Positions 1,011 through 24,795 of a DNA stretch of 37,142 bases are shown piece by piece. This DNA comes from Rhodobacterales bacterium 56_14_T64 (GTDB lineage Bacteria > Pseudomonadota > Alphaproteobacteria > Rhodobacterales > Rhodobacteraceae), in assembly GCA_002162795.1 (NCBI GenBank), contig MAAY01000039.1, forward strand, positions 52,262 through 89,403, written 5' to 3'. The translations under genes and the position numbers were made by a program. Each line of letters begins with the position of its first letter. The first letter of the stretch is position 1. The notes beneath the pieces are model-generated. The model did no database searches. It had not been told where the DNA came from and worked only from the letters and a program-made list of their open reading frames with translations.

Positions 1011-1586
1011 TCAGGACAGTGCTAGGTCCACCACCCGACGGGCTGCAGCGCGGGCTGCGGCAGGATCCACGGATTGGTCCGAAAGCGCCGCCTGCAACCA
1101 AGCTCCATCCATGTAGTTCTGTAGGGCTTGGCGAGCGGTCTCGACGCCCTCGGCAGGCAAAAGGCGGCGCAATTCGGCGCGAAAATGACTGCGCACCCGG
1201 GCGCGGTTCAGGTGGTGCAGACGCGCAAGATGCGGTGAATACGGTGCACTGGCCCAGAACTGCATCCAGATGCTGCATTGTTCCACCGTAAACAACTGAT
1301 CCGAGAAATTGGCATTCATCACCGCATAGAGCCGCTCGGTTGGGGAATTCGCCGCGCTGTACCCGGTGATCATGGCGGCACGAAGTTTGCGCAGCAGATG
1401 GCGCATGGTGGCCTCCATCAGGCCTTCTTTGGAGCCGAAATAATAGTTGATCGAGGCAGCCGAGGCCCCAGCCTCGCGGGCAATGTCTGCCATTGTTACA
1501 GCACCATAGCCATGCCTGTGCACGGCCACGATGGTGGCTTCGATCAGCTCTTCATTGCGAATGTCACGGATGCGTTTTCTGCTCAT
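1011..1586 (-). CDS. betI: BetI-type TetR-family repressor
   Basis: A 191-residue TetR/AcrR regulator. The N-terminal helix-turn-helix spans about residues 10-55 (start MSRKRIRDIRNEEL, recognition region with NYYFGSKEGL). The C-terminal ligand domain resembles E. coli BetI along its length, for example WMQFWASAPYSP and YMDGAWLQAALS against BetI's AFWASS and IDGLWLRAALSG. BetI represses choline-to-betaine genes and is relieved by choline. The frame is open upstream to 1742, but ATG 1586 gives the normal BetI length and leaves the divergent intergenic region free. It is divergent from betA, with a 16-bp palindrome (1646-1661) between them, so it likely represses betA and itself. Confidence 0.88.
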   Translation of the reverse strand: MSRKRIRDIRNEELIEATIVAVHRHGYGAVTMADIAREAGASAASINYYFGSKEGLMEATMRHLLRKLRAAMITGYSAANSPTERLYAVMNANFSDQLFTVEQCSIWMQFWASAPYSPHLARLHHLNRARVRSHFRAELRRLLPAEGVETARQALQNYMDGAWLQAALSDQSVDPAAARAAARRVVDLALS

Positions 1587-1645
1587 GCTGCATATTTGCC
1601 CGACCCGCCTCTGGTTGCAACTCCTGTTGTTGGTGCAGGAAAAAC

Positions 1646-1661
1646 TTGAATAGTCATTCAA
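1646..1661. promoter_or_regulatory. Candidate BetI operator between betI and betA
   Basis: The sequence TTGAATAGTCATTCAA has perfect 6-bp inverted arms (TTGAAT/ATTCAA) around four central bases. It lies 59 bp from the betI start and 84 bp from the betA start, a usual place for a TetR-family operator. A perfect 16-bp version is found at 24663-24678, and five further flanking bases (AAACT) are shared on the plus strand. That BetI binds it is an inference. Confidence 0.7.
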
Positions 1662-1745
1662 AAAATTGTTTCTAGCATTAAGAAGCGCTGAGCGCGGCTG
1701 GCGCCAGCCGGTTTTGAAACACAGCAATGCGGCCGGAGACAACAG

Positions 1746-3401
1746 ATGAATGCGGATTATGTAATCGTAGGGGCAGGGTCAGCAGGCTGTGCGTTGGCTT
1801 ATCGCCTCAGCGAAGCAGGCCACCAAGTTCAAGTGATTGAACACGGCGGCAGCGATGCCGGTCCGCTGATCCAGATGCCCGCCGCGCTGAGCTATCCTAT
1901 GAACATGAGCCTGTATGATTGGGGCTATAAATCGCAACCCGAACCACATCTGGGTGGGCGCGAGCTGGTGACCCCGCGTGGCAAGGTGATTGGCGGGTCT
2001 TCCTCGATCAACGGTATGGTCTATGTGCGTGGTCATGCCGGGGATTATGACCACTGGGCCGAAAGCGGCGCGCAGGGCTGGAGCTACGCCGATGTGCTGC
2101 CCTATTTTAAACGCATGGAAACCTGGCACCACGGCGGCCATGGTGGCGATGCGGATTGGCGCGGCAATGACGGCCCGCTGCATATCTCGCGCGGTCCCCG
2201 CAACAATCCGCTTCACGATGCCTTTGTCGAGGCCGGCCGTCAGGCGGGCTATCCGATCACCGACGACTACAACGGCCAGCAGCAAGAGGGCTTTGGCCCG
2301 ATGGAGCAGACGGTTTACAAGGGCCGCCGCTGGTCAGCCGCCAATGCCTATCTTCGCCCGGCGTTGCAGCGGCCTAATTGCACCCTGACGCGCGCCTTTG
2401 TGCGTCGCGTGGTGATCGAGGACGGCTGCGCCACTGGCGTCGAGGTCGAGCGTGGTGGCAAGATCGAAGTGATCCGGGCAAACCGCGAGGTGATCCTGTC
2501 GGCCAGCTCGCTGAATTCTCCTAAGCTGTTGATGCTGTCAGGCATCGGCCCGGCGCAGCATCTGGCCGAACATGGTATTGATCTGGTGGCCGACCGCCCG
2601 GGCGTCGGGCAGAACCTGCAGGATCACCTGGAACTGTACCTGCAAATGGCCTGCTCGCAGCCAATCACCCTGTTCAAACACTGGAACCTGTTCAGCAAGG
2701 CGATGATCGGGGCGCAGTGGTTGTTCACCAAAACGGGTCTGGGAGCCTCGAATCAGTTTGAATCAGCCGCCTTTATCCGCTCTCAGGCGGGCGTGGATTA
2801 CCCGGACATCCAGTATCACTTCCTGCCGATGGCGGTGCGTTACGATGGACAGGCCGCCGCCGAAGGCCACGGATTTCAGGCGCATGTCGGCCCGATGCGC
2901 TCTTCCTCACGCGGGGCGGTGACCCTAGCCAGTGCTGACCCCAAGGACGCGCCCAACATTTTGTTCAACTACATGTCCACCGAGCAGGACTGGGTGGATT
3001 TCCGCAAGTGCATTCGTCTGACACGCGAGATCTTTGGTCAGGACGCGTTCAAGCCTTTTGTCAAACACGAGATCCAGCCCGGTGTTGATATGCAAAGTGA
3101 CGATGAACTGGACAGCTTTATCCGCGAACACGTTGAGAGCGCCTTTCATCCCTGCGGCACCTGCCGCATGGGGGCGGCGAACGACGTGACTTCGGTGGTG
3201 GACCCCGAATGCCGGGTGATTGGTGTCGACGGGCTGCGGGTCGCGGACAGCTCGATCTTTCCGCGCATCACCAATGGCAACCTGAATGGGCCCTCGATCA
3301 TGAGTGGTGAGAAAGCGGCTGATCATATCCTCGGGCGCAGCCTGCCACCGTCAAATGCGCAGCCATGGTATCATCCGGATTGGCAGGGAACACAGCGCTG
3401 A
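1746..3401 (+). CDS. betA: Choline dehydrogenase (GMC oxidoreductase)
   Basis: A 551-residue GMC-family flavoprotein, the usual BetA length, oxidising choline to betaine aldehyde and often on to glycine betaine at the membrane. The N-terminus carries the FAD-binding GAGSAG (residues 9-14). The GMC signature GGSSSINGM is at 83-91, and the C-terminus has HPCGTCRMG with the expected catalytic histidine at 468, followed by the FAD-closing segment around [11 protein letters not shown] and NLNGPS. GGAGAC precedes the ATG. It is divergent from betI, so control by choline through BetI is likely. No betaine aldehyde dehydrogenase (betB) or choline sulfatase (betC) is adjacent or elsewhere in the window, which is less usual for this cluster. 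Confidence 0.92.
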
Positions 3402-3718: not shown

Positions 3719-3798
3719 TAACGGCTGCGGTAGTATCATTTTCTGCACAGAAAATGGGTCGGAAAATTCGAATTTTCCGGCTACTGCTGCCCCCGTTA
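3719..3798. repeat. Nested palindromic element between convergent genes
   Basis: Two compact hairpins lie side by side: CATTTTCTG/CAGAAAATG at 3737-3756 (9-bp arms, 2-base loop) and a perfect 20-bp palindrome of CGGAAAATTC with GAATTTTCCG at 3760-3779. They are enclosed by imperfect outer arms, TAACGG plus CTGCGGTAG (3719-3733) facing CTACTGCTG plus CCGTTA (3781-3798). The distal arm contains the pccR stop codon. It may be a bidirectional terminator, although no T-tract follows, or a small multicopy intergenic repeat. Copy number cannot be judged here. Confidence 0.6.
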
Positions 3799-5184
3799 AC
3801 TCACCTCGTAAGGCAGCACACCGCGTTTGTCGGTGTTGATGGTCAACCGGCGCTCTAATGGCGGCACCGAGCGTTGGTGACACTGCTGCCGCTCGCAAAT
3901 GCGACAGGAGATGCCAATCGGTTCATAAGCGCTGTCGTTGTCGACACCCATGTTGTCGGCATAGACAATCGAGTCGGCGTGGCGCACTTCGCACCCCAGC
4001 GCAATGGCGTAACGCTGCACGGGGGAGCCAAACGAGCCTCCGGGCTTGGATACATCCAATGCTAATGAAATATAGCGGATCCCGTCCGGGGTTTCGGCCA
4101 GTTGGCGCAGAAAACGGCCAGGTGTTTCAAAGGCGCGGTGCACGTTCCACAGGGGGCAGGCGCCACCAAAACGGGCAAATTGCAGCCGGGTGGCCGAGTG
4201 GCGTTTGGTGATGGTGCCGGCCTGATCCACCCGCACAAAGAAGAATGGAATGCCTTTGGCACCGGGGCGCTGCAGGGTCGACAACCTGTGTGCGACTTGC
4301 TCGATCGAGGCGCCAAACCGGGTGGCCAGAAGCTCCAGATCGTGGCGACATTCTTGGGCTGCAGCCTGAAACCTGCCGTAGGGCATCAACGCAGCTCCGG
4401 CAAAGTAATTGGCCAGCCCGATCTTGGCGATGGACCGCGCCTCGTCGCTGTTAAAGCGGGCAAAGTCCAGCGTTGCCTCAAGTAAGTCATTTTGGCGCAG
4501 CAGTGCCACCTGTAGCAGCAGTTGAAACACCTGGGTTTGCGGGGCGGATCGGTTCGACAGGTGCAGGGTGCGGCTGGCTCTGTCGTAGCGGCGCAACCCG
4601 TCCATTTCGCTGTTCACCACCGTGATGCCCAGGTTTTTAAGCGTTGCAACTGCGGCCCGTCGACTGTCGCCATCGCTGGTGAAGCGCTCGGCTGCGCGAT
4701 CCACTGCGTCGATGTAGTTGTCGCAATAGTGAAAGAAATCGCGCACCTCTTCCCAAGGGCTGGCTTGGATACGTGAATCCTCGCGTCCCAGTGCCTCATC
4801 CAGCGAGGCCAGCCGCTCGTGCGTTAACCGATAAGCGCGGTGCAGCTCGAGAAAGGCCCGCGCCAGCGCCGGGGCGTTTGATGCCGTCAGCCGCAGGTCG
4901 GCCAGCGCTGGAGCATCATCGGTAAACACAGGATCGGCCAGCGCCTCGCGCATGTCGCTGACCAGCCGTTCGCTATCACCCGAACTCAGTTCGGTTACAT
5001 CCAGACCAAATTCTTGCGCCAGAGCCAGCACAACGGTGGTGCTGACGGGTCGGTTATTGTTCTCCATCTGGTTCAGATAGGGCAGCGATATCCCCAGTTT
5101 GGCGGCAAAGTTCTTTTGCGTCAGGGTGAGCCGCGTACGCATCTCGCGCAGCTTGGCGCCAGCATAGAGTTTTTGGGTGGCCAT
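3796..5184 (-). CDS. pccR: Short-chain acyl-CoA regulator, PccR-like
   Basis: A 462-residue regulator of the ScfR family (RamB/PccR type). The N-terminus has an XRE helix-turn-helix at about residues 8-62 (KLREMRTRLTLTQKNFAAKL). The long C-terminal part matches the DUF2083 acyl-CoA-responsive region and ends with a cysteine cluster C427-x2-C430-x4-C435 (SCRICERQQCHQRS) found across the family. In Rhodobacter sphaeroides PccR senses propionyl-CoA supply and controls pccB. Here pccB starts 1.5 kb away on the other strand, with an MFS gene between, which supports the same role. The frame is open upstream to a TTG at 5232, but ATG 5184 (MATQKLYAG) begins the normal N-terminus and has AAAGG before it. 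TTTGCAAA at 5196-5203 touches that RBS, suggesting autoregulation. Confidence 0.85.
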   Translation of the reverse strand: MATQKLYAGAKLREMRTRLTLTQKNFAAKLGISLPYLNQMENNNRPVSTTVVLALAQEFGLDVTELSSGDSERLVSDMREALADPVFTDDAPALADLRLTASNAPALARAFLELHRAYRLTHERLASLDEALGREDSRIQASPWEEVRDFFHYCDNYIDAVDRAAERFTSDGDSRRAAVATLKNLGITVVNSEMDGLRRYDRASRTLHLSNRSAPQTQVFQLLLQVALLRQNDLLEATLDFARFNSDEARSIAKIGLANYFAGAALMPYGRFQAAAQECRHDLELLATRFGASIEQVAHRLSTLQRPGAKGIPFFFVRVDQAGTITKRHSATRLQFARFGGACPLWNVHRAFETPGRFLRQLAETPDGIRYISLALDVSKPGGSFGSPVQRYAIALGCEVRHADSIVYADNMGVDNDSAYEPIGISCRICERQQCHQRSVPPLERRLTINTDKRGVLPYEVS

Positions 5185-5195
5185 GTGGTCATACC

Positions 5196-5203
5196 TTTGC
5201 AAA
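5196..5203. promoter_or_regulatory. Candidate PccR half-site upstream of pccR
   Basis: The 8-bp palindrome TTTGCAAA lies 11 bases upstream of the pccR start codon and overlaps the region of its ribosome binding site. A related ATTGCAAA follows at 5226-5233. The same octamer occurs upstream of pccB (6571-6578). TTTGCAAA is the motif reported for R. sphaeroides PccR as I recall it, there as a repeat spaced by four bases; that exact spacing is not seen here. Confidence 0.5.
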
Positions 5204-5250
5204 TCCAGGTTTGGCGAATTGTAGAATTGCAAAGTTCCAGCCGCAAGGGG

Positions 5251-6462
5251 TTACAATCCCAGACGCCGTTCCCGCCAGATGACCAACTGGATCGACAACA
5301 GGCCCAGAACAGCGGTAGCCAGCATGATCAACAGCAGCGGCACTGCGGTCGAACCCGGTACCAGCAACCAGCCTGCCAGCGCGCTTAAGCCCGCACCGAC
5401 GCCCAACATCAGCGCGCCACTCAGCCCGGCAGCGGTGCCGGCCAGATGTGGGCGGACGGACAGTGCGCCCGAGGTTGAATTTGGGATTGCCAACCCATTG
5501 CCAAGGCCAACAAAGGTCATGAAGCCAAAGAAGCTATAGACAGAATCCAATCCGGCACTGGCTACGATCAGGGATAGCGTGATGCCGATGCCGTTGATCC
5601 AGCAGCCCCATAGCACCATTCGGTTGATACCGATCCGCATCGAATACCGGCCCGACAGGAAATTGCCGAAAAAATACCCCACTGCAGGGGCCGAGAAATA
5701 CAATCCCAACTGGGCGGTGCTCAGCATATAGATCTCGGTGCCGACAAAGGGTGCACCGCCAAGATAGGCAAAGAACGCCCCCGAGGCGAGGCCAGAGGCC
5801 AGAGAATAGCCCCAGAACCGGGGCGAGCGCAGCAACTCAGGGTATTCCCGGAACTGGGCGATCAAAGTCTTGCCGCTCTTGTGCGCGGTCTCGCCAAAAT
5901 CGAGGTAGCAGATCACCAGAATGAGCGCGCCGAGCCCGAACAGCAGCCAGAAATTTGCTGTCCAGCCAAAGGCTTGATCCAGCGCGCCACCAATGGCCGG
6001 CCCGATCATCGGCACCACCGCCATGCCCATAGTGACATAGCCGATCATGCTGGCGGCCTTGTCTTGGTCATACAGATCACGCACCGCAGCGCGGCTCAGT
6101 ACCATGGCCACTGCAATCGCTGCCTGGGCCATGCGGAACGCCAAAAAGATCTCGGCGGTGGGGGACCAGATACAGCCAAGTGTCGCCAGCAGAAACAGCA
6201 CAATCCCGGTCAGGATGACTGGCCGGCGCCCCATTTTGTCGGAAATAGGCCCGACCAGAATCTGGATTACCGCATTCATTGCTAGATACAGCGCCACCGA
6301 CAGCTGCATCAGACGATAGTCGGCCTGGAAATAGACCGCCATACCGGGAAGTGAAGGCAAAAAGACATTCATCCCCAGCGCTGACAGCCCCGCCAGCAAA
6401 ATCAGCGTGGAAATATGCGGTGGTGAGTGGCGGCTCAGGTAGCGTGTTTTTGATGTCTGCAT
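5251..6462 (-). CDS. Bcr/CflA-type MFS multidrug exporter
   Basis: A 403-residue protein with twelve predicted membrane segments. It has the Bcr/CflA features of a drug:H+ antiporter: the early NVFLPSLPGM segment, the loop motif GPISDKMGRRPV between helices 2 and 3, and PMIGPAIGGAL in helix 5, the motif C of exporters. GGAAG precedes the ATG. It lies in front of pccR on the same strand, 66 bases apart, and its promoter region faces that of pccB, so it may share acyl-CoA-linked control. The substrate is unknown; exporting an organic acid or drug are both possible. Confidence 0.87.
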   Translation of the reverse strand: MQTSKTRYLSRHSPPHISTLILLAGLSALGMNVFLPSLPGMAVYFQADYRLMQLSVALYLAMNAVIQILVGPISDKMGRRPVILTGIVLFLLATLGCIWSPTAEIFLAFRMAQAAIAVAMVLSRAAVRDLYDQDKAASMIGYVTMGMAVVPMIGPAIGGALDQAFGWTANFWLLFGLGALILVICYLDFGETAHKSGKTLIAQFREYPELLRSPRFWGYSLASGLASGAFFAYLGGAPFVGTEIYMLSTAQLGLYFSAPAVGYFFGNFLSGRYSMRIGINRMVLWGCWINGIGITLSLIVASAGLDSVYSFFGFMTFVGLGNGLAIPNSTSGALSVRPHLAGTAAGLSGALMLGVGAGLSALAGWLLVPGSTAVPLLLIMLATAVLGLLSIQLVIWRERRLGL

Positions 6463-6570
6463 ACTTCCGCATTAGGTCACTGACGCGGGCTTGTCTATGC
6501 AAACGGCGCGTCATTTCCTAAGTGCGCATATTAGCATATTTGCAGTTTGCGGCGGCCTGTCTGTAGTGGC

Positions 6571-6578
6571 TTTGCAAA
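6571..6578. promoter_or_regulatory. Candidate PccR site in the pccB promoter region
   Basis: TTTGCAAA at 6571-6578 runs directly into TTTGCGA (6579-6585). A similar doublet, TTTGCAGTTTGCGG, lies at 6539-6552, and TATGCAAA at 6496-6503. These lie 65 to 155 bases before the pccB start. The clustering and the link to the box upstream of pccR make a PccR binding region likely, but the same octamer also occurs inside pccB (6973) and inside an unrelated gene (34224). Confidence 0.5.
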
Positions 6579-6650
6579 TTTGCGATTATTGCCTTGGGTC
6601 TGCTTGTGACGCAAGATATGGTCGCGACAAATCATTAGGGGACTTGGGCC

Positions 6651-8183
6651 ATGAAAGACATTCTTTCCGAGCTGGAAAACCGCCGCACCGAAGCGCGGCT
6701 GGGTGGCGGTCAGCGCCGCATCGACGCACAGCACGCGCGTGGTAAACTGACTGCCCGCGAGCGCATCGAGCTGCTGCTGGACGAAGATAGCTTTGAAGAA
6801 TTCGACATGTTCGTCGCCCACCGATGCACTGATTTTGGCATGGAGAACCAGCGACCCGCAGGCGACGGCGTTGTCACCGGCTGGGGCACCATCAATGGCC
6901 GCATGGTCTATGTCTATAGTCAGGACTTTACCGTCTTTGGCGGCTCGCTGTCCGAAACCCACGCGCAGAAGATTTGCAAAATCCAGGACATGGCGATGCA
7001 GAATGGTGCGCCGATTATTGGCCTGAACGATTCTGGCGGAGCCCGCATTCAGGAAGGCGTCGCCTCGCTGGCTGGCTACGCCGAGGTGTTCCAACGCAAC
7101 ATCATGGCCTCGGGCGTGGTGCCGCAGATTTCCGTTATCATGGGCCCCTGTGCTGGCGGCGCGGTCTACTCACCTGCGATGACCGACTTCATCTTCATGG
7201 TCAAAGATACCTCTTATATGTTCGTCACTGGCCCCGATGTGGTGAAGACCGTGACCAACGAAACGGTCACCGCCGAAGAATTGGGCGGTGCATCGACCCA
7301 CACCAAGAAATCATCGGTTGCCGATGGCGCATTTGAAAATGATGTCGAGGCCCTGGCTGAGGTTCGCCGCCTGGTCGACTTCCTGCCGCTAAATAACCGT
7401 GAGAAACCACCCGTGCGGCCGTTCTTTGATGAACCAGGCCGGATCGAGGCGAGTCTGGACACTCTGATCCCAGACAACCCCAATACGCCTTACGACATGA
7501 AAGAACTGATCCACAAGCTGGCGGATGAAGGTGATTTCTACGAGATCCAGGAAGATTTTGCCAAGAACATCCTGACCGGCTTCATCCGTCTCGAAGGTCA
7601 GACCGTTGGCGTCGTTGCAAACCAGCCGATGGTGCTGGCGGGCTGCTTGGACATCGACAGCTCGCGCAAGGCAGCGCGTTTTGTACGTTTCTGTGACTGT
7701 TTTGAAATCCCGATCCTGACACTGGTCGATGTGCCCGGCTTTCTGCCCGGCACGTCTCAGGAATACGGCGGCGTCATCAAGCACGGCGCCAAGCTGTTGT
7801 TTGCCTATGGCGAGGCTACCGTGCCCAAGGTCACTTTGATCACCCGCAAGGCTTATGGTGGTGCTTACGACGTGATGGCCTCCAAACACCTGCGCGGTGA
7901 TTTCAACTACGCTTGGCCCACTGCCGAGATCGCAGTGATGGGCGCCAAAGGCGCGACTGAGATTATCCACCGTGCCGATCTGGGCGACGCTGACAAGATC
8001 GCGGAACATGTGGCCGATTATGAGGATCGCTTTGCCAATCCCTTTGTCGCCGCTGAGCGTGGTTTCATCGACGAAGTGATCCAGCCCCGCAGCACCCGCC
8101 GCCGGGTGTCACGCGCCTTTGCCTCGCTGCGCGGCAAATCGCTAAAGAACCCATGGAAGAAGCACGACAATATTCCACTGTGA
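6651..8183 (+). CDS. pccB: Propionyl-CoA carboxylase beta subunit (carboxyltransferase)
   Basis: A 510-residue carboxyltransferase that moves the carboxyl group from biotin on PccA to propionyl-CoA, giving (S)-methylmalonyl-CoA. The crotonase-fold halves are clear: the N-terminal half has [19 protein letters not shown] and [12 protein letters not shown], and the C-terminal half has [31 protein letters not shown] and [11 protein letters not shown]. Length and motifs fit PccB rather than acetyl-CoA carboxylase AccD. It is the first gene of the plus-strand propionate locus, 1.5 kb before pccA, with a cluster of TTTGC-type boxes upstream that suggests PccR control. Confidence 0.96.
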
Positions 8184-8209
8184 CCAAGGATTCCTCTTTG
8201 TGAAAGCAC

Positions 8210-8242
8210 TCCCGCCGAAGGTAAGAAAAGTTTTTGGCGGGA
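8210..8242 (+). other. Inverted repeat after pccB
   Basis: TCCCGCC (8210-8216) and GGCGGGA (8236-8242) form 7-bp arms around a 19-base AT-rich loop directly after pccB. No T-tract follows, so it is not a standard intrinsic terminator. It could protect the pccB mRNA 3' end or reduce read-through into the next gene. Confidence 0.4.
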
Positions 8243-8282
8243 CAATCTCCTAAATATTTGACATGAGACACAAACCTAGACC

Positions 8283-8762
8283 ATGATCCGCTTCAGCCAA
8301 GATAGAACAGCGCGCGCCAATGGCGTAGCGCGAGCAGCCCTGACCGGAGGAGCTCAATTATTTGGGGGTCGGGGCTGCGGATATCTGGCTGCTATGCTGA
8401 TACTGGCTACACCTTTACTTGCTGACGACCCTTTTCCGGTCCCGTCAGGCCAGAATGTCACTCTGACCGAAGTTTTGCTGGACGAAGCCCCGGGCGAGTT
8501 GTGGGCGCGGTTCCGCTTTGTGGCCCCGGCAATCACCCGCGAAACTGGCAGCGTGAGCTACGATTTGGCCGGACCGGATATGGATCATCTCTGTGATGCG
8601 CTGGCGCTGCCGTATCTGGCGTCTCATGCCATCACCCCGGCGCGGGTGGTGATCTCGCTGATGGATCGTCCCGTCACCTTTGGCGCCCAAGACCCCGCCG
8701 CCACCCAGTTTTTTGAGACCTACCGCCCCCAAGGCGCGCGCTGCATTTGGGAGGAGTTCTGA
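8283..8762 (+). CDS. Secreted protein of unknown function, DUF6497-like
   Basis: A protein of up to 159 residues with a hydrophobic stretch (LAAMLILATPLLA, about residues 35-47) that looks like a signal peptide ending before DDPFPVPSG. This is followed by a roughly 110-residue mature domain with two cysteines (in HLCDAL and RCIWEEF) that could pair in the periplasm. It resembles the Rhodobacterales-restricted DUF6497 proteins found near pccB, from memory. The start is uncertain: ATG 8283 has no obvious Shine-Dalgarno and gives a long n-region, while ATG 8394 leaves too short a signal peptide. Location between pccB and pccA suggests co-expression with propionate genes; the role is unknown. Confidence 0.7.
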   Translation: MIRFSQDRTARANGVARAALTGGAQLFGGRGCGYLAAMLILATPLLADDPFPVPSGQNVTLTEVLLDEAPGELWARFRFVAPAITRETGSVSYDLAGPDMDHLCDALALPYLASHAITPARVVISLMDRPVTFGAQDPAATQFFETYRPQGARCIWEEF

Positions 8763-8976
8763 TGGGGCATCAACATCTTGCGCCTCAAGGCTATTCTCGG
8801 CGAATTGTTGCGGCTTTGCGGCCACATGCCCCGGTAACGCCCCGATTTGGATGTAATCTGGCTGACATTCCGGCTATCATTGACGCGGGCCGCAATTTCG
8901 CGACCTGTCAAATGAGGTCGAAACCGGTAACGGCACAACGTCGCGCTGGTTTCAATTGTTCAAACAGGAGACAGAA

Positions 8977-9117
8977 ATGTCCAAGAGCATCAAACTGCTT
9001 GCCATGGTTGGCCTGCTGGCCGCCGTTGCCGCATGCGGTCAACAGGAAGAAGAATTTGTCGTCATCGATCCCGAGCCCATCTCGGTCGAACCAGCCTATA
9101 CCGGCAAATACAAATAA
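8977..9117 (+). CDS. 46-residue lipoprotein
   Basis: A short gene with a strong ribosome binding site (AGGAGA) seven bases before the ATG. It encodes MSKSIKLLAM, a hydrophobic stretch and the lipobox VAAC (Cys20), then an acidic 26-residue mature peptide ending in YTGKYK and two tandem stop codons. After cleavage and acylation it would be a tiny membrane-anchored lipoprotein, similar in size to entericidin-like peptides but without recognisable homology. It lies between pccB and pccA. Function is unknown. It is easily missed in annotation because of its length. Confidence 0.8.
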   Translation: MSKSIKLLAMVGLLAAVAACGQQEEEFVVIDPEPISVEPAYTGKYK

Positions 9118-9122
9118 TAAAA

Positions 9123-9154
9123 ATTGGGGCCCGGCCCTGCGGTCGGTCCCCAAT
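9123..9154 (+). terminator. Strong hairpin after the small lipoprotein gene
   Basis: ATTGGGG (9123-9129) pairs with CCCCAAT (9148-9154), extended by CCGGCC/GGTCGG with one G-T wobble around a CTGC loop. It begins five bases after the stop codon. No T-run follows, so it may be a weak terminator, or an mRNA-stabilising or processing structure that sets different levels of pccB-side and pccA-side transcripts. Confidence 0.5.
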
Positions 9155-9186
9155 CATCCGCGCAGCGCCGGTCGAAAGGCGCTACC

Positions 9187-9534
9187 ATGCTAAAACACCG
9201 CGGATTTCCTGGCCGACTGCCAGGCACAGATTTCCAATTCACCATCCGTCGCCCCAACCCCAAAGGGGTCACTGCGATATCGCGACGCGAACGCTTTCAT
9301 GATCGCCGCCCGGCTGACCGGCGCGCCGATGCCGGCTTTATCAAGGCACTATGGATTCAGTTTGGCGACCAGCCCTTTGAGCGCGGCAACTTGGATGCCG
9401 GCCGCATAAGCTGGTTGTTTGAACGTGAAGTGATCGCCGCCGAAGACCCCTTTGATCCGGAAAGCTACGATGCCCTATTGGTGCTCGACCTGCGCATCTG
9501 TCAGCTGGCCTTTCCGGACGTGTTTGGGGAGTAA
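9187..9534 (+). CDS. Hypothetical protein upstream of pccA
   Basis: A 115-residue soluble protein without a recognisable family. The N-terminal half is basic (several Arg pairs, FHDRRPADRRAD) and the C-terminal half is acidic with aromatic residues (ISWLFEREVIAAEDPFDPESYD). No signal peptide, membrane segment or known motif is seen. The frame extends upstream to 9124 inside the hairpin, but ATG 9187 has GAAAGGCG before it and is preferred. Codon use resembles its neighbours, so it looks like a resident gene of the propionate locus rather than a recent arrival. Function unknown. Confidence 0.65.
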   Translation: MLKHRGFPGRLPGTDFQFTIRRPNPKGVTAISRRERFHDRRPADRRADAGFIKALWIQFGDQPFERGNLDAGRISWLFEREVIAAEDPFDPESYDALLVLDLRICQLAFPDVFGE

Positions 9535-9540
9535 TCGGGC

Positions 9541-9592
9541 ATGGGGCTGCGTGTTTCGCCATATTGCCACCTAGGCTGGCCAACAGCCCCAT
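9541..9592 (+). other. Inverted repeat in the pccA leader
   Basis: ATGGGGCTG (9541-9549) and CAGCCCCAT (9584-9592) are perfect 9-bp inverted arms with a 34-base loop in the 163-base gap before pccA. It could act as a terminator of the upstream unit or as a structured leader of the pccA mRNA. Nothing more is evident in this gap. Confidence 0.4.
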
Positions 9593-9697
9593 CCGCCGGG
9601 GCCATCGCGCCCGGCACCGCTATTCCAACATCACGCCCAGCAGCGCGTCTTGCGTTGAACTGTGCTGTTTCGACATCCAGAAGACAAAGGACTGCCC

Positions 9698-11698
9698 ATG
9701 TTTAACAAGATCCTGATCGCCAATCGGGGCGAGATCGCCTGCCGCGTCATCAAAACCGCGCGCAAAATGGGTATCCAGACCGTTGCAATCTATTCAGATG
9801 CCGACCGCAACGCGCTGCATGTGAAAATGGCGGACGAGGCGGTGCACATCGGCCCGCCGCCTGCCAACCAGTCCTATATTGTCATCGACAAGGTGATGGA
9901 GGCCATTCGCCAAAGCGGTGCCCAAGCCGTGCATCCCGGCTATGGCTTCCTGTCGGAAAACGCCAAATTCGCCACGGCACTGGCCGCCGAAGGTGTTGCC
10001 TTTGTTGGTCCGCCAGTGGGCGCGATTGAGAAGATGGGCGACAAGATCACCTCGAAGAAAATCGCCCAAGAAGCCGGAGTGTCTACGGTTCCGGGCCACA
10101 TGGGTCTGATCGCCGACGCCGATGAAGCGGTGAAAATTTCGAACGAGATTGGCTATCCGGTGATGCTCAAGGCCAGCGCTGGCGGCGGCGGCAAAGGCAT
10201 GCGGATTGCCTGGAATGATGAAGAGGCCCGCGAAGGCTTTCAGTCGTCGAAAAACGAAGCCGCCAATGCCTTTGGCGATGACCGGATCTTTATTGAGAAA
10301 TTCATCACCCAACCGCGTCACATCGAAATTCAGGTGCTTTGCGACAGCCACGGCAACGGCATCTATCTGGGCGAGCGCGAATGCTCGATCCAGCGTCGTC
10401 AGCAGAAAGTTGTGGAAGAGGCGCCAAGCCCGTTCCTGGACGAGACCACCCGTAAGGCGATGGGTGAACAGGCGGTCATGCTGGCCCACGCGGTGGATTA
10501 CGCATCCGCCGGCACCGTTGAATTCATCGTTGATGGCGACAAAAACTTCTACTTCCTGGAAATGAACACCCGCTTGCAGGTAGAGCACCCAGTGACCGAG
10601 CTTATCACGGGTGTTGATCTGGTCGAACAGATGATCCGCGTTGCCAACGGCGAGCCGCTAAGCATCACGCAGGACGATGTGAAACTGAACGGCTGGGCCA
10701 TCGAAAACCGTCTCTATGCCGAAGATCCCTATCGCGGATTTCTGCCGTCGATCGGCCGTCTGACCCGCTATCGTCCCCCATTCGAGGTGGTCGAAGAGAG
10801 CCATGTGGTGCGCAACGATACCGGCGTCTTTGAGGGCGGCGAGATCTCGATGTATTATGATCCGATGATTGCCAAGCTGTGCACTTGGGCACCAACCCGT
10901 GATCAGGCGATCGAGGCAATGCGCAACGCATTGGATGGATTTGAGGTCGAAGGCATTGGTCACAACCTGCCATTCCTGTCTGCAGTGATGGATCACCCGA
11001 TCTTTATGGCGGGTGAAATGACCACTGCTTTCATCGAAGAACAATATCCCGACGGGTTCGAAGGCGTTGAACTGTCTACAGGCGCTCTGCGCCGCATTGC
11101 TGCCGCCTGCGCCGCCATGCACCGGGTTGCCGAAATTCGTCGAACCCGCGTGTCGGGCCGCATGGACAACCACGAACGACGGGTTGGTGTCGAATGGGTG
11201 GTGTCACTGCAGGGCGAAGATTATGCGATGACAATCGACGCAGACCGTGACGGATCAACCATTGTATTTGCCGACGACACCCAGAAACGTGTCACCAGCA
11301 GCTGGACGCCCGGCGATCAACTGGCTGATCTTGAAGTGGACGGCGAAAAGCTGGTTCTCAAGGTTGGAAAAATCCCCGGTGGCTTTCGCATCCGCTCACG
11401 CGGGGCCGACATGAAGGTCCACGTGCGCACCCCACGTCAGGCTGAACTGGCCAAGCTGATGCCGGAGAAAGTCGCGCCCGATACCTCGAAACTGCTGCTG
11501 TGCCCAATGCCGGGCCTGATCGTAAATGTCGCGGTGCAGGTGGGGGATGAAGTCCAAGAGGGCCAGGCCCTGTGCACCGTCGAGGCAATGAAGATGGAAA
11601 ACATCCTGAAGGCCGAGAAAAAGGGCACCGTGTCCAAAGTCAATGCCGCCGCGGGCGACAGCTTGGCGGTGGACGATGTGATCATGGAGTTCGAATAA
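9698..11698 (+). CDS. pccA: Propionyl-CoA carboxylase alpha subunit (biotin carboxylase and carrier)
   Basis: A 666-residue subunit that carboxylates its own biotin using ATP and bicarbonate. The biotin carboxylase domain (about 1-450) begins with FNKILIANRGEIACRV, has the ATP-grasp glycine loop KASAGGGGKGMR and the catalytic region EMNTRLQVEHPVTE. A middle BT-type domain follows, and the C-terminal carrier domain carries EAMKMEN with the biotinylated lysine at 632, about 35 residues from the end as usual. The frame is open to 9662, but ATG 9698 gives the conserved N-terminus and has AAAGGA before it. It works with PccB to make methylmalonyl-CoA. The next gene follows three bases after the stop. 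Confidence 0.96.
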   Translation: MFNKILIANRGEIACRVIKTARKMGIQTVAIYSDADRNALHVKMADEAVHIGPPPANQSYIVIDKVMEAIRQSGAQAVHPGYGFLSENAKFATALAAEGVAFVGPPVGAIEKMGDKITSKKIAQEAGVSTVPGHMGLIADADEAVKISNEIGYPVMLKASAGGGGKGMRIAWNDEEAREGFQSSKNEAANAFGDDRIFIEKFITQPRHIEIQVLCDSHGNGIYLGERECSIQRRQQKVVEEAPSPFLDETTRKAMGEQAVMLAHAVDYASAGTVEFIVDGDKNFYFLEMNTRLQVEHPVTELITGVDLVEQMIRVANGEPLSITQDDVKLNGWAIENRLYAEDPYRGFLPSIGRLTRYRPPFEVVEESHVVRNDTGVFEGGEISMYYDPMIAKLCTWAPTRDQAIEAMRNALDGFEVEGIGHNLPFLSAVMDHPIFMAGEMTTAFIEEQYPDGFEGVELSTGALRRIAAACAAMHRVAEIRRTRVSGRMDNHERRVGVEWVVSLQGEDYAMTIDADRDGSTIVFADDTQKRVTSSWTPGDQLADLEVDGEKLVLKVGKIPGGFRIRSRGADMKVHVRTPRQAELAKLMPEKVAPDTSKLLLCPMPGLIVNVAVQVGDEVQEGQALCTVEAMKMENILKAEKKGTVSKVNAAAGDSLAVDDVIMEFE

Positions 11699-11701
11699 GA
11701 T

Positions 11702-12226
11702 ATGCCCATGGCGCAACCATATCGCCGGGCCGTTTATGCGGCACTGGCGGTGCTGGCCCTCACCGGGCTGGCAAGTTGCGCCATGGACTCTGAGCAAGAA
11801 GTACGAGCCCTCGTTGGTGACTGGGTCACTCTGGACGAGACCGCCTTTTTCAAATCCGGCATGAACTGTACTGCTGGCGTGTTCAAACTGGAAACCACCC
11901 GAATTTCCTCACTTGTGACTCATGCGCGATCCGTCAGAGGTGGGATGGATGCGATGGCCGAAGGCAAACCAGTCGCCTTTATGATCAGTGGCTTATCACC
12001 GACTTTGGTATCAGAGCAGGTGATGACCGCCGATTTGCCTAAGGGGCTAGGAGTTCTGTCTTCGGGGGTGGCGGGCAAGGACTGCATGGATGACGGGACC
12101 AAGCGATCCTATCTGCGTGCCTTGCTGGACCCAAATGCTGTACTGATCTTTGAGCCCACCGAAAAATTCATGGCCGTCGTCGACAGAACCAACGCGCGGT
12201 TGTTCTTTTCGCGAGGGAATGTCTGA
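11702..12226 (+). CDS. Lipoprotein of unknown function downstream of pccA
   Basis: A 174-residue protein with a signal sequence and lipobox LASC (Cys about 26), then a mature domain of about 150 residues. It contains two further cysteines (NCTAGVF and KDCMDD) that may form a disulfide. It starts three bases after the pccA stop, with GGAG inside the pccA end, so it is translated in the same operon; a second ATG two codons later is also possible. It converges with the DUF4174 gene, four bases apart. No family was recognised; a periplasmic, membrane-anchored protein is all that can be said. Confidence 0.8.
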   Translation: MPMAQPYRRAVYAALAVLALTGLASCAMDSEQEVRALVGDWVTLDETAFFKSGMNCTAGVFKLETTRISSLVTHARSVRGGMDAMAEGKPVAFMISGLSPTLVSEQVMTADLPKGLGVLSSGVAGKDCMDDGTKRSYLRALLDPNAVLIFEPTEKFMAVVDRTNARLFFSRGNV

Positions 12227-12230
12227 TGGC

Positions 12231-12674
12231 TCAGCTGCCGCGACGTTCCTCGACTTCGCGCATGCGGGATGGGAACTTGTCAATGGTGCGGCTCAGCTCA
12301 CGCACCGTCCAGGGCGATGGCTTGCGCAGCTTGACGCCGCCATCCTTGCCGACCAGCACCAACATGAACCCACGTGGCCGCAATTTCTGCCGCAACACCG
12401 AGTTGGCGGCAGGATCAGTATCCACCAGAACCACCACATCGCGGTCAAACAATGCCTCGGCCCCCTGTGACAAACGCTCGATCTGTTCATGGAAACGCGG
12501 ATCATCCGGGCTGTCGGCAAACACCACTACGGGGCGGTTTTTCCATAAAAATTCACTCAAATCGCTTTCATTCCCCGGCTGGATCAGCGCTGGGGTCACC
12601 GTTTCGGCGGCGTCTTGTGCGATCAGAGGTGCTGGAAGAAATGCTGCCAGAACAAAGGCTAGGAATAGTTTCAT
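12231..12674 (-). CDS. DUF4174-domain periplasmic protein
   Basis: A 147-residue protein with a signal peptide (MKLFLAFVLAAFLPAPLIAQ) and a DUF4174 domain of about 110 residues. The domain has recognisable segments NRPVVVFADSPDDPRF, DRDVVVLVDTDPAA and RPRGFMLVLVGKDGGVKLRK, and a thioredoxin-like order of strands but no CxxC. The frame is open upstream to 12758; ATG 12674 is preferred because AGGAG precedes it and the signal peptide then begins properly. It is the only minus-strand gene inside the propionate locus, so it has its own promoter. The function of DUF4174 proteins is not established. Confidence 0.85.
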   Translation of the reverse strand: MKLFLAFVLAAFLPAPLIAQDAAETVTPALIQPGNESDLSEFLWKNRPVVVFADSPDDPRFHEQIERLSQGAEALFDRDVVVLVDTDPAANSVLRQKLRPRGFMLVLVGKDGGVKLRKPSPWTVRELSRTIDKFPSRMREVEERRGS

Positions 12675-12854
12675 AATATCTCCTGTCGCTTTGAATATAT
12701 GCACCTTTGCGCGGAATGCGATGGGGGAAATGACCTCCAGCACCAAAAAACCAATCATCGTTAATCGGTCTGACAGAGGCTGCAGGGTATGATCTTGCAG
12801 TTTCCTTCAAACCGGCTGCCGCGTGTGGCCCCTGGCCAAAGGACCGGCAAGGCG

Positions 12855-13790
12855 ATGAACGTGTTTTTACATATTGGGGCGCACCGCTGCGCTACCACCA
12901 GTTTTCAGGAATATCTGCGCCAGAACGCCGAGGCGCTGGATGAGCGCAATATTGGTTTTTGGGGCCCGCGCAGGACCCGCAACGGGCTGTTCAATGGTAT
13001 CCTGCCCGGACCCGGCGCCGCCACTGGCCGTGACCTGCAACGCCGCGCCGAAGGCCGGGTGCAGATGCATTTGGCGCGTAGTAGGGCGCTGGGGTTGGAT
13101 CACCTGGTGATCAGTGATGAGAATTTGATGGGAACAGTCCGCGAGAACCTGCGTCTGGGAGCGCTGTATTGCGGTGTCGGCGAACGGATGGCCCGGTTTG
13201 CTCAGGCTTTTGATGGGCAGGTCACTGATGTGGTGGTCAATATACGCAGCCTGGAAAGCTACTGGGCCTCGGCGCTGACTTATGGGGTGGCGCGTGGCCA
13301 CCGGGTGCCAAATATGCCGAGGCTGAATCAGCTGGTCGACAACAGGCGCAGTTGGCGCGACGTGTTGAGTGATGTCGCCTGCGCCATGCCCGGTGCACGC
13401 ATCTGGGCGCTGCCGTTTGAAACTTATGGCGGCCGCCCCGAGGCACAATTGGCTGCAATGATTGGTCAGCCTATGCCGCGCAGTAATGCCCGTCTTCGGC
13501 TGAACGTGACCCCGCATTTGCCTGAGTTGCGCGGCCAGTTGCAAAGCGCAGTTGCCGATCAACTGCCCGAGGGGCAGGGACGCTGGCAACCCTTTGACGC
13601 GGCGCAGATCGCGGCCCTGCGCGAGACTTACGCTGATGACCTGATGTGGCTGACCGCCGGCGGTGACGGGCTGGTGCAGCTGAAACAAGATCCAGACAAA
13701 ACAGGGCAGGGCATGAACCCGGCCCGTACAGACCTGACAAGAGGAAGACCCCATGACGACCAAACAGAACGAGTGGCGGGCGCTGGCTGA
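12855..13790 (+). CDS. Sulfotransferase-like P-loop protein
   Basis: A 311-residue cytoplasmic protein whose N-terminus ([11 protein letters not shown], residues 6-16) matches the phosphosulfate-binding loop of PAPS-dependent sulfotransferases and related capsule or glycan enzymes. A later segment, [13 protein letters not shown], fits the second conserved region with its arginine and serine. The acceptor cannot be predicted. The frame is open to ATG 12789, but ATG 12855 puts the P-loop near the N-terminus as usual and follows AAAGG. The 3' end overlaps the mutase gene by 38 bases in another frame, and the mutase RBS lies inside it, so translation of the two may be linked. Its presence between pccA and the mutase is metabolically unexplained. 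Confidence 0.75.
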
Positions 13791-15882
13791 AAAAGAGCTG
13801 CGCGGGCGCGCTGTTGAAGATCTGAACTGGCAAACCCTCGAAGGCATCGAGGTCAAGCCGCTTTACACCGAAGACGACACCGCCGATCTGCCGCACATGG
13901 GCTCGGTCCCCGGCGTTGGCCCGTTTACCCGTGGCGTCAAGGCGACCATGTATGCAGGCCGCCCCTGGACCATCCGGCAATATGCCGGGTTCTCGACCGC
14001 CGAAGAAAGCAACGCCTTCTATCGCCGCAATCTGGCCGCCGGCCAGCAGGGCGTTTCGGTAGCCTTTGATTTAGCCACCCACCGTGGATATGACAGCGAC
14101 CACCCCCGCGTGGTTGGCGATGTGGGCAAGGCCGGCGTGGCCATCGACAGTGTCGAAGACATGAAAATCCTGTTCGACGGCATCCCGCTGGACAAGGTCT
14201 CGGTGTCGATGACCATGAACGGGGCAGTGGTGCCTATTCTGGCCAGTTTCATCGTTGCAGGCGAAGAGCAGGGCCATGACAAATCCCTGCTAGCGGGCAC
14301 CATTCAGAACGACATTCTGAAGGAATTCATGGTTCGCAACACCTATATCTATCCGCCCGAGCCCTCGATGAAAATCATCTCGGATATCATCGAATACACC
14401 ACCAACGAGATGCCAAAGTTCAACTCAATCTCGATCTCCGGCTACCACATGCAAGAGGCCGGCGCCAATCTGGTGCAGGAACTCGCCTATACCCTGGCGG
14501 ATGGACGCGAGTACGTCCGCGCCGCGATTGACGCAGGCATGGATGTCGACAAATTCGCCGGCCGCCTGTCTTTCTTCTTTGCCATCGGCATGAATTTCTT
14601 CATGGAGGCCGCCAAACTGCGCGCCGCCCGTCTGCTGTGGCATCGCATCATGACGGAATTTGGCGCCAAATTCGAACGCTCCAAAATGCTGCGCACCCAC
14701 TGCCAGACATCCGGCGTGTCGCTGCAGGAACAAGACCCCTATAACAACGTGGTGCGCACCGCATACGAGGCGATGGCGGCGGCTTTGGGTGGCACTCAGT
14801 CCCTGCACACCAACGCTCTGGACGAGGCGATTGCCCTGCCAACCGATTTCTCGGCTCGTATCGCTCGCAACACTCAACTGATCCTGCAGGAAGAAACCGG
14901 CATCACCAATGTGGTGGACCCGTTGGCCGGCTCTTACTACGTCGAAAGTCTGACTGCTGAGCTGGCAGACAAAGCCTGGGCCCTGATCGAAGAAGTCGAG
15001 GAAATGGGCGGCATGACCAAGGCTGTGGCCAGTGGCATGCCAAAACTGCGCATTGAAGAAAGCGCGGCCAAGCGTCAGGCCATGGTGGATCGCGGCGAAG
15101 AAGTGGTTGTTGGCGTCAACAAATACCGGTTGGACAAGCAGGACCCGATCGACATTCTGGATGTCGACAACGTGGCGGTGCGTGAAAGCCAGGTGGCACG
15201 TCTGGAACAAATCCGCGCAACTCGCGACGAAACTGCCTGTCAGGCTGCACTCGATGCATTGACCAGCTGCGCCAAGGACGGCGGCAATCTATTGGCCGCT
15301 GCTGTCGAGGCCGCCCGTGCACGAGCCACAGTGGGGGAGATCAGCATGGCGATGGAGAATGAATTCGGACGTCACCGCGCCGAGGTGAAAACTCTGGCTG
15401 GTGTTTACGGTGCCGCTTATGAAGGCGACGAAGGCTTTGCCGCCATTCAGAAAAGTATCGGGAATTTCGCCGAAGAAGAGGGCCGTCGTCCGCGTATTCT
15501 GGTGGTCAAGATGGGCCAGGACGGTCACGACCGGGGTGCCAAGGTGATTGCCACTGCATTTGCGGATATTGGATTTGACGTCGATGTGGGCCCGTTGTTT
15601 CAGACGCCAGACGAGGCGGCGCAGGATGCCATCGACAACGACGTGCATGTGATCGGCATCTCGTCGCAGGCGGCTGGCCACAAAACTCTGGCGCCGCAAC
15701 TGGTACAGGCGTTGAAAGATCAGGGCGCCGAGGACATTCTGGTGATCTGTGGCGGCGTCATTCCGCAGCAGGATTATCAGTTCCTCTATGACGCGGGCGT
15801 CAAAGCGATCTTTGGTCCCGGCACAAATATCCCCGAAGCGGCGCAGAACATCCTGCAATTGATCCGCGATGCGCGTACCTGA
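13753..15882 (+). CDS. mcm: Methylmalonyl-CoA mutase, single-chain B12 enzyme
   Basis: A 709-residue mutase converting (R)-methylmalonyl-CoA to succinyl-CoA with adenosylcobalamin. The N-terminal substrate-binding barrel has [21 protein letters not shown], the typical CoA-tunnel region, and [10 protein letters not shown]. The C-terminal cobalamin domain carries D590-x-H592-x-x-G595 (DGHDRG), with H592 as the lower ligand of cobalt, followed by GISSQAAGH. Length fits the single-chain, homodimeric form (ScpA/BhbA type). AGAGGAAG precedes the ATG. It completes propionate assimilation started by PccB and PccA. Methylmalonyl-CoA epimerase and the MeaB chaperone are not in this window. The stop overlaps the next start by one base (TGATG). 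Confidence 0.96.
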
Positions 15883-23256: not shown

Positions 23257-24621
23257 TTAGTCGATGCGTACACCCTGCCGTTTCAGCTCGGCCTGCACCG
23301 CGACGATGTCGACCTGATCCAACGGTGTGTTGCTACGGATTGACTGCGCAGCGGCAATGCCAGCCCCTTGACCAGCAACGGCGCAACAGGCCATGTTGCG
23401 GGTGGCGGCATGGGCCACCTTGTCGCCACCAATGGCGCGACCGGTCACCAGCAGGCTCTTCACACCCTTGGGCAGCATACAGCGGTAGGGGATCTGCATG
23501 TAGCGGCCGGTGGTGGGTAGGATCAGGATGCCGTAGCCATCGATGAATTCGGGGTAGATGCCGATAGTATCGTCAAACCGGCCCTGATGGCGGGTCTCGT
23601 CTTCGGTGATATTGTGCACAGCATCGATCTTGCGGGTGTCACGGATGCCGATGGTCATGCCAAAATTGCGCAACCGCGCCGCCTCGCAGCCCGGAGTGTA
23701 GGCTTTCAGCGCCTCAATCGCCAGCATCGCTTGTTTGCGGCCCTCAATCTCACCCTGTGTCATGCTGTCTGGGTCGGTTCCATCGATCCCGGCCAGATGC
23801 ACCAGATTCATATAGGTCATTTCACCACTGTCATGCACCGCGCCCCAAGTGCCGCCGATGGTGTTCAGATGTGCCGGGATCACCCCGTCGCGGATCGCCT
23901 GACCAAAGGGTTTGGCGAGGAAGGGCGAATACATCGCGTCCTCTTTGCCGCTGGTTTCCACCTGCCATTCGCCGGTGGACCAATCGGCATAGGTTTGGGG
24001 GTCGGCCTTGACGCCGTCCATGAACGCCTGCTTGTCGACACCGGCAATGTGGAACATCACCGAGGCCGCCTGCATTTCTTCAAGTGGAGTCTTGATGGTT
24101 GGTGCGCCCATCATATGGGCAATGTCGGCATCGCCAGTGGCATCAATCACTCGTTTGGCCAGAATGGCCTCGCGCCCTGCCTTGGATTCAACGATCACCC
24201 CGGTGACTGTATCACCCTCGCGGATCGGAGCGACAAACTGGCGGTGCAGCATCGGATGGATTCCGGCCTCTTCCACCAGCTTATCGGCCACCAGCTTGAA
24301 ACCTTCGCTGTCCAGCTCATAGCTGAGTGACTGGCTTTCAGGCACCGCAGCCCCCATTGCCTTGGCGCGCTCTTCGAACTCCCAACCAATACCGCCGGCC
24401 TCGACCGTTTGTTCATGACGGTACCAGGCAAAGCCTTCGACACCGACAGAGGTGATATTGCCACCGAAACAGCCAAAGCGGTCCAGCAAGGCCACCTGCA
24501 CACCGGCCCGTGCCGCCGCCAATGCCGCCGCCAGCCCGCCGGGGCCGGATCCAATGACCAGCACCTCGGTTTCATGAATGACCGGGATCTCGCGAGCGGG
24601 TTCGGTAATGGTTGATGTCAT
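23257..24621 (-). CDS. FAD-dependent oxidoreductase (FAD_oxidored type)
   Basis: A 454-residue flavoprotein with an N-terminal Rossmann motif VLVIGSGPGGLAAALAAARAG (about residues 20-40) followed by GCFGGN, typical of the pfam12831 FAD_oxidored group. A second FAD segment, RVIDATGDADIAHMMG, lies in the middle, and the C-terminus has LLVTGRAIGGDKVAHAATRN. The substrate is unknown. The frame is open to 24678, but ATG 24621 has GAGGTGGAG before it and avoids translating through the palindrome. A perfect 16-bp palindrome (24663-24678), the same as that at betI/betA, lies 41 bases upstream. This suggests BetI control and a role linked to choline or other quaternary amines, which is inference. Confidence 0.85.
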   Translation of the reverse strand: MTSTITEPAREIPVIHETEVLVIGSGPGGLAAALAAARAGVQVALLDRFGCFGGNITSVGVEGFAWYRHEQTVEAGGIGWEFEERAKAMGAAVPESQSLSYELDSEGFKLVADKLVEEAGIHPMLHRQFVAPIREGDTVTGVIVESKAGREAILAKRVIDATGDADIAHMMGAPTIKTPLEEMQAASVMFHIAGVDKQAFMDGVKADPQTYADWSTGEWQVETSGKEDAMYSPFLAKPFGQAIRDGVIPAHLNTIGGTWGAVHDSGEMTYMNLVHLAGIDGTDPDSMTQGEIEGRKQAMLAIEALKAYTPGCEAARLRNFGMTIGIRDTRKIDAVHNITEDETRHQGRFDDTIGIYPEFIDGYGILILPTTGRYMQIPYRCMLPKGVKSLLVTGRAIGGDKVAHAATRNMACCAVAGQGAGIAAAQSIRSNTPLDQVDIVAVQAELKRQGVRID

Positions 24622-24662
24622 CGGTTGCTGCTCCACCTCAAATTTCGGCCACCATATGAAAC

Positions 24663-24678
24663 TTGAATGGCCATTCAA
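24663..24678. promoter_or_regulatory. Perfect palindromic operator upstream of FAD oxidoreductase
   Basis: TTGAATGGCCATTCAA is a perfect 16-bp palindrome. It matches the betI/betA site at 14 of 16 positions, with the differences only in the centre, and shares AAACT on its left flank. On the minus strand its left arm could serve as a -35 (TTGAAT), with TATGGT (24651-24656) as a -10 at 16-base spacing, so a bound repressor would block RNA polymerase. Confidence 0.75.
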
Positions 24679-24795
24679 GAAAATTCGCGACGTTGAGCGG
24701 CAAAACCGTCATTGCGGTAACGGACAAAGCCCGATTGCTTGCGGCGCGGTGATAGCTTAGACCGCTTTGGAACCCATTCTTAGATCGAGACCGTC

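Follow-up and report, generated by a model that had tools for sequence, protein, structure and literature searches.

For marine bacteria, choline and glycine betaine are important sources of carbon and nitrogen. In the available portion of its published account, the roseobacter choline pathway comprises BetABC, BetT, BHMT, DMGDH and sarcosine dehydrogenase (PMC4744692). The closest described regulatory system is that of BetI2 in Ruegeria pomeroyi DSS-3, where two overlapping boxes in the gap between betI2 and betTA are bound, their palindromes sharing AAACTTGAAC (PMC12442346). These boxes depart from the classical betI box, the effector is choline, and choline lowers the expression of betI2 and raises that of betTA (PMC12442346). 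BetI1 of the same organism, which is 33.5% identical to BetI2, has the box ATTGACG-CGTCAAT (PMC12442346).

We analysed a stretch of 37,142 nucleotides (the window) from Rhodobacterales bacterium 56_14_T64, in which the following features are relevant here:

1011..1586, minus strand: betI, choline-responsive TetR-family repressor (TIGR03384, 228.2 bits, cut-off 201.3), BetI2 type by our assignment
1642..1665, no strand: 24-base box in the betI/betA gap, core 1646-1661 (38.0 bits, own genome outside the matrix)
1746..3401, plus strand: betA, choline dehydrogenase (TIGR01810, 838.1 bits, cut-off 732.1)
23257..24621, minus strand: FAD-dependent oxidoreductase of 454 aa, proposed BetI target (PF12831, residues 19-446, E 1.7e-82)
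24651..24656, minus strand: possible -10 element TATGGT, 4/6 to consensus, as judged from the sequence
24659..24682, no strand: 24-base box before the FAD gene, core 24663-24678 (38.5 bits, the top score of the window), conserved in the genus
24673-24678, minus strand: possible -35 element TTGAAT, identical with one palindrome half and 16 bases before TATGGT, judged in the same way

This arrangement resembles that of R. pomeroyi BetI2 in its TetR-type BetI beside betA, its AAACTTGAAC palindromes and the existence of two BetI types that are about one-third identical, and the AAACTTGAAY flank of the window boxes fits the R. pomeroyi BetI2 boxes (PMC12442346). It differs in two respects: the betI/betA gap of the window has one strong box instead of two overlapping ones, and a second box, a candidate operator, lies before the FAD gene, a target for which there is no counterpart in the Results of PMC12442346. 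With the alphaproteobacterial BetI1 boxes, the window shares palindromic BetI operators before choline genes, whereas the arms and flanks of its box are different. Pathway and regulator family are the same as in the published roseobacter choline pathway, which has no PF12831 flavoenzyme among the genes in the available portion of its description (PMC4744692).

The repressor gene and betA are divergent, and the palindrome at 1646-1661 lies in the gap between them. In a phylogenetic tree, 31 BetI2-type and 19 BetI1-type sequences each fell on one side of a branch (support 97/97 and 97/99), the two labels being our own and the R. pomeroyi sequences standing outside the tree. The window protein shares 35% identity with one BetI1-type protein. 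Because of its separate clade, this identity of about one third and its AAACTTGAAC-like boxes, we call it BetI2 type, an assignment of ours by clade and by likeness to the published description, with the R. pomeroyi BetI2 sequence outside the comparison. The own draft genome contains betA and had no match to TIGR01804 (betaine-aldehyde dehydrogenase) at E 1e-150 or better in a 96.9% complete assembly. The idea that the flavoenzyme might stand in for betaine aldehyde dehydrogenase is left as speculation in view of this strict threshold and the incomplete draft.

The preliminary description had reported a perfect 16-base palindrome before the FAD gene and a second site with the same arms between betI and betA, and both are exact in letters and coordinates. 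The first, TTGAATGGCCATTCAA, occupies 24663-24678 and is separated by 41 bases (24622-24662) from the ATG of the FAD gene, which ends at 24621; the second, TTGAATAGTCATTCAA, occupies 1646-1661 and has perfect 6-base arms around the centre AGTC. AAACT stands directly left of both, as had been seen, and the likeness is longer than first noted: with this flank, the box extends over 24 bases at 1642-1665 and 24659-24682. Both sites read AAACTTGAAT, carry the AAACTTGAAY flank of a BetI2 operator and follow the pattern AAACTTGAAY-N4-RTTCAAGTTT.

We put at roughly 0.78 the probability that 24663-24678 is an operator through which the BetI2-type repressor encoded at 1011-1586 controls the promoter of the FAD gene, that choline relieves this repression, and that the enzyme acts on choline, a choline-derived compound or a related methylated amine, the most likely substrates. 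The box would overlie the region of the FAD promoter; a strict promoter scan reported no promoter at either box. Without choline, BetI would sit on the FAD promoter as well as in the betI/betA gap; choline would loosen it, and the flavoenzyme would then be produced along with choline dehydrogenase. Since choline acts in opposite directions on betI2 and betTA in R. pomeroyi (PMC12442346), the sign of regulation is uncertain here.

The preliminary description had called the FAD gene unlinked to betI. The word is too strong, as betI and the FAD gene are 21.7 kb apart in the window and, from their coordinates, 21.8-25.8 kb apart in six same-genus genomes that have both. The two genes are loosely linked, at about 22-26 kb, throughout the genus. 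Between the boxes, at 3796-15879, the window holds genes for an ScfRs short-chain acyl-CoA regulator, propionyl-CoA carboxylase-type proteins and methylmalonyl-CoA mutase, apparently an ordinary gene cluster of the propionate pathway.

In the own draft genome (4,335,868 bases in 111 contigs, 96.9% complete), TTGAAT-N4-ATTCAA occurs exactly only at 1646-1661 and 24663-24678, and by our own arithmetic the base composition predicts about 0.04 exact matches per genome. Arms with one mismatch were found at eight further places, against none for a reversed control pattern. Shuffled sequences in which up to two mismatches were allowed, a figure that does not apply to exact matches, gave a mean of 1.11 places, with at least two places in 28 of 100 shuffles. 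The longer pattern TTGAAYNNNNRTTCAAGTTT is found at only four places in 3 of 295 family genomes (one genome per genus): two in the window, one before betI of G342 and one before a DctP-type gene of G307. The last of these (L156, near 1501) precedes the gene of a DctP-type binding protein; G307 has no close BetI2, and this isolated exact match to the long pattern is perhaps due to chance. In the G342 locus (L157), a gene at 1641-2846 divergent from betI encodes what we read as a membrane-like protein, a candidate member of the betI region; its assignment as a BCCT transporter was withdrawn, as no Pfam match was found at E 1e-8.

A shortened pattern was followed through 13 genomes. With one mismatch it occurred at 57 places versus 49 for the reversed control (our own sums), so that only near-exact sites count. 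Of its ten exact matches, eight precede betI or the FAD gene, and the other two precede a phosphodiesterase gene. These two (L203 in G063 and L216 in G061, both near 1501) are exact BetI2-type boxes before a type I phosphodiesterase-family gene (PF01663), which could be a further BetI2 target, for example in choline release from lipids. Further BetI targets in the own genome were sought with near-consensus patterns only. The third place of the shortened pattern in this genome, on contig C66, scores 16.2 bits and lies within an open frame; the loci of the eight one-mismatch places reach at most 15.4 bits; and the only BCCT gene detected there lacks a box, the best score of its locus being 7.2 bits.

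For comparison across genomes, a scoring matrix was built from 24 boxes upstream of betI in other genomes, from which the own genome and all FAD-gene sites were excluded; the boxes were chosen by their likeness to a consensus that we had typed ourselves, and all start 76-82 bases before betI. With this matrix, the FAD box (38.5 bits) scores as high as the betI/betA box (38.0 bits), and the next separate site of the window reaches 8.9 bits. An orthologue of the FAD gene is present in six of seven same-genus genomes (95-96% identity), and all six carry the box (16.5-32.7 bits) while the upstream neighbour varies; the seventh genome, G004, has BetI2 and lacks the FAD gene. Identity among the seven sequences is 87% in the arms, 48% in the four central bases, 52% in the 100 bases before the box and 65% between box and start. 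Two orthologues of 77-78% identity (L023, L024) have no box. The scan of the own genome and its relatives that had been proposed at the outset thus found the site conserved before orthologues of both betI and the FAD gene, and not in many copies at unrelated places.

Rarity and conservation also argue against a chance palindrome or one that serves the divergent gene at 24796, which encodes a class II core aminoacyl-tRNA synthetase that we take to be proS. The palindrome does lie between this gene and the FAD gene, at a distance of 117 bases from the synthetase start codon. The box stays at the FAD gene in loci with other divergent neighbours (L018, L055, L063, L266), and we reject both chance and synthetase control as highly improbable because the box is rare, conserved and tracks the FAD gene.

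The same matrix was applied to 80 named loci of FAD orthologues, which we grouped by the BetI of their genome: at least 75% identity in 19, 60-63% in 2, no such BetI found in 31, and the genome outside the BetI search in 28. Three genomes are common to these 19 loci and the six same-genus orthologues. Where BetI is at least 75% identical, the FAD-gene box ranks first in its locus in 19/19 cases (16.5-32.8 bits), and these loci, 313 kb in all, hold no other site above 12.7 bits. It is the best site in 0/2 loci with a BetI of 60-63% (L073, L085), in 0/31 where no such BetI was found and in 0/28 outside the search. The top score elsewhere in the named loci, 25.5 bits, lies inside the gyrB gene of L095, in a genome that yielded no such BetI, so high scores may arise by chance.

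A further comparison used one genome per genus. The FAD gene is present in 38 of 295 genomes, BetI (E 1e-40 or better) in 17 and the pair in 9 (p=4.4e-5, kinship ignored); a close BetI2 is absent from 29 of the 38 genera with the FAD gene. Of the 9 genera with both genes, 4 have a site of at least 15 bits at the FAD gene (the own genome G000, G342, G249, G149) versus none of the 29 without BetI2 (p=0.0017, or 3/8 and p=0.0072 when the window genome is left out, kinship ignored in both). In the genera without BetI2, the best of 30 FAD-gene places scores 7.4 bits. Five of the nine genera having both genes show no strong box at the FAD gene, and G342 is not independent, since it belongs to the named set as well and contributed to the matrix. 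The FAD gene of G149 lies in a different neighbourhood and still carries the box (25.4 bits).

These data bear on whether a different TetR-family regulator with a similar recognition sequence, rather than BetI, controls the FAD gene. The own genome has other TetR-type proteins: a search with BetI returned four more weak matches (23-36% identity), one of which, on contig C89, has a BetI-type C-terminal domain. The equal scores of the two boxes under a matrix trained on betI boxes, together with the restriction of the box in the named loci to genomes with a BetI of at least 75% (19/19 vs 0/31 and 0/2), make such a regulator quite unlikely. Around the C89 gene (L276, about 6900-11400), TTGAACGTTCATTCAA lies between a gene that we read as an ABC binding-protein gene and genes including one for a DAO/GCV_T flavoprotein of 818 aa; close by are the TetR gene just mentioned and an old-yellow-enzyme-like gene. 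This region looks like a separate methylated-amine cluster with a regulator of its own. The predicted control of the flavoprotein by BetI, already proposed in the preliminary description, is well supported by comparison, having held in rarity, in conservation before both genes, under a matrix of betI boxes only and in co-occurrence with the BetI type.

The FAD protein matches PF12831 over the full profile (positions 1-416 of 416, 278.4 bits, cut-off 27), and no NCBIfam model reached its cut-off among the 25 listed of 52. The model of its structure, with a mean pLDDT of 82, shows a generic flavoprotein fold, and the best Foldseek match has a TM score of 0.46 and 14% identity. PDB sequence searches and one Foldseek search returned generic flavoproteins only, so no substrate is taken from the structure.

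Some gene neighbourhoods of the FAD orthologues look informative. Across the box, a gene for a BCCT (betaine/carnitine/choline-family) transporter is divergent from the FAD gene in L055, L056, L058 and L063. In 22 named loci from one cluster, the FAD gene is followed by a gene for a 2-oxoglutarate/Fe(II) oxygenase, a family assignment checked in L049, L058 and L113. The oxygenase gene (9365-10339 in L058 and in L049, 9359-10330 in L113) begins where the FAD gene ends or right beside that point, which suggests a two-gene unit in these loci. In the window, an AI-2E family gene, not an oxygenase gene, takes this place. The FAD gene is preceded by an aldehyde dehydrogenase gene in G225, whose nearest model is that of betaine aldehyde dehydrogenase, below cut-off, and in G018, by a DAO-type oxidase gene in G169 and by a gene for a DMSP-demethylase-like protein, below cut-off, in L107. 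Many further FAD loci have uninformative neighbours.

BetI might bind the site while the flavoenzyme serves osmotic, redox or other physiology instead of choline or amine turnover. This fits the effect of salt on betI2-betTA of R. pomeroyi (PMC12442346), the generic fold match and the many loci in which the enzyme has unrelated neighbours and no box. We consider it unlikely, although clearly less so than another regulator, as the neighbours that look informative are BCCT transporters, aldehyde dehydrogenases, a DAO-type oxidase and the DMSP-demethylase-like protein under cut-off. From regulation and gene context, we infer a role of the flavoenzyme in choline or amine metabolism.

Sites of the other BetI type are found at the same gene. 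A second matrix was built from 21 boxes before BetI1-type genes, which are TTATTGATTGACGAGTCAATTA-like. With it, the site before the FAD gene is the best of the locus in L061 (30.3 bits), in L082 (23.5 bits) and in 10 of 16 Ruegeria loci (13.5-22.9 bits); among the other Ruegeria loci, the FAD site ranks second or third in L124 and L099, and L096, L108, L109 and L113 have none. The cut of 12 bits was set after the scores had been seen. The matrix also gives 16.8 bits to the betI box of the window and up to 16.3 bits to other BetI2 boxes, and 2 of 30 FAD places in genera without BetI2 pass 12 bits, so that the weaker Ruegeria sites are only suggestive. The putative BetI1-type sites of L061 and L082 are convincing. 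A strong BetI1-type site 6.7 kb off, beside an OpuAC binding-protein gene, in L113 and L096 served as a rough positive control. BetI (E 1e-30 or better) was found in only 2 of 54 genomes of the genus of these Ruegeria loci, and some genomes with BetI1-type sites before the FAD gene are without BetI2.

Tentatively, with the odds slightly against so broad a statement, the FAD protein may be an enzyme, so far overlooked, that takes part in the oxidation of choline or methylated amines in the marine Roseobacter group. Its control by choline would have been kept even though the repressor differs by lineage, with a BetI2-type box in one group and, in one Roseovarius, the DT101 genome and most of the Ruegeria loci examined, one of the BetI1 type. 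In some lineages, it would work with the 2-oxoglutarate/Fe(II) oxygenase encoded directly after it.

Our literature search found no earlier tie of BetI or choline to this enzyme; as far as that literature goes, the kind of box and of regulator is known already, and the FAD target is new. The pairing of the two sites recurs in related marine bacteria, so that this enzyme probably belongs, unrecognised until now, to their choline response. The published roseobacter choline pathway is a short list of genes, to which a conserved flavoenzyme controlled by the choline repressor would add a member missed so far. If true, the switch of repressor type at the same target would be a compact case in which the control of a regulon was rewired and its target kept.
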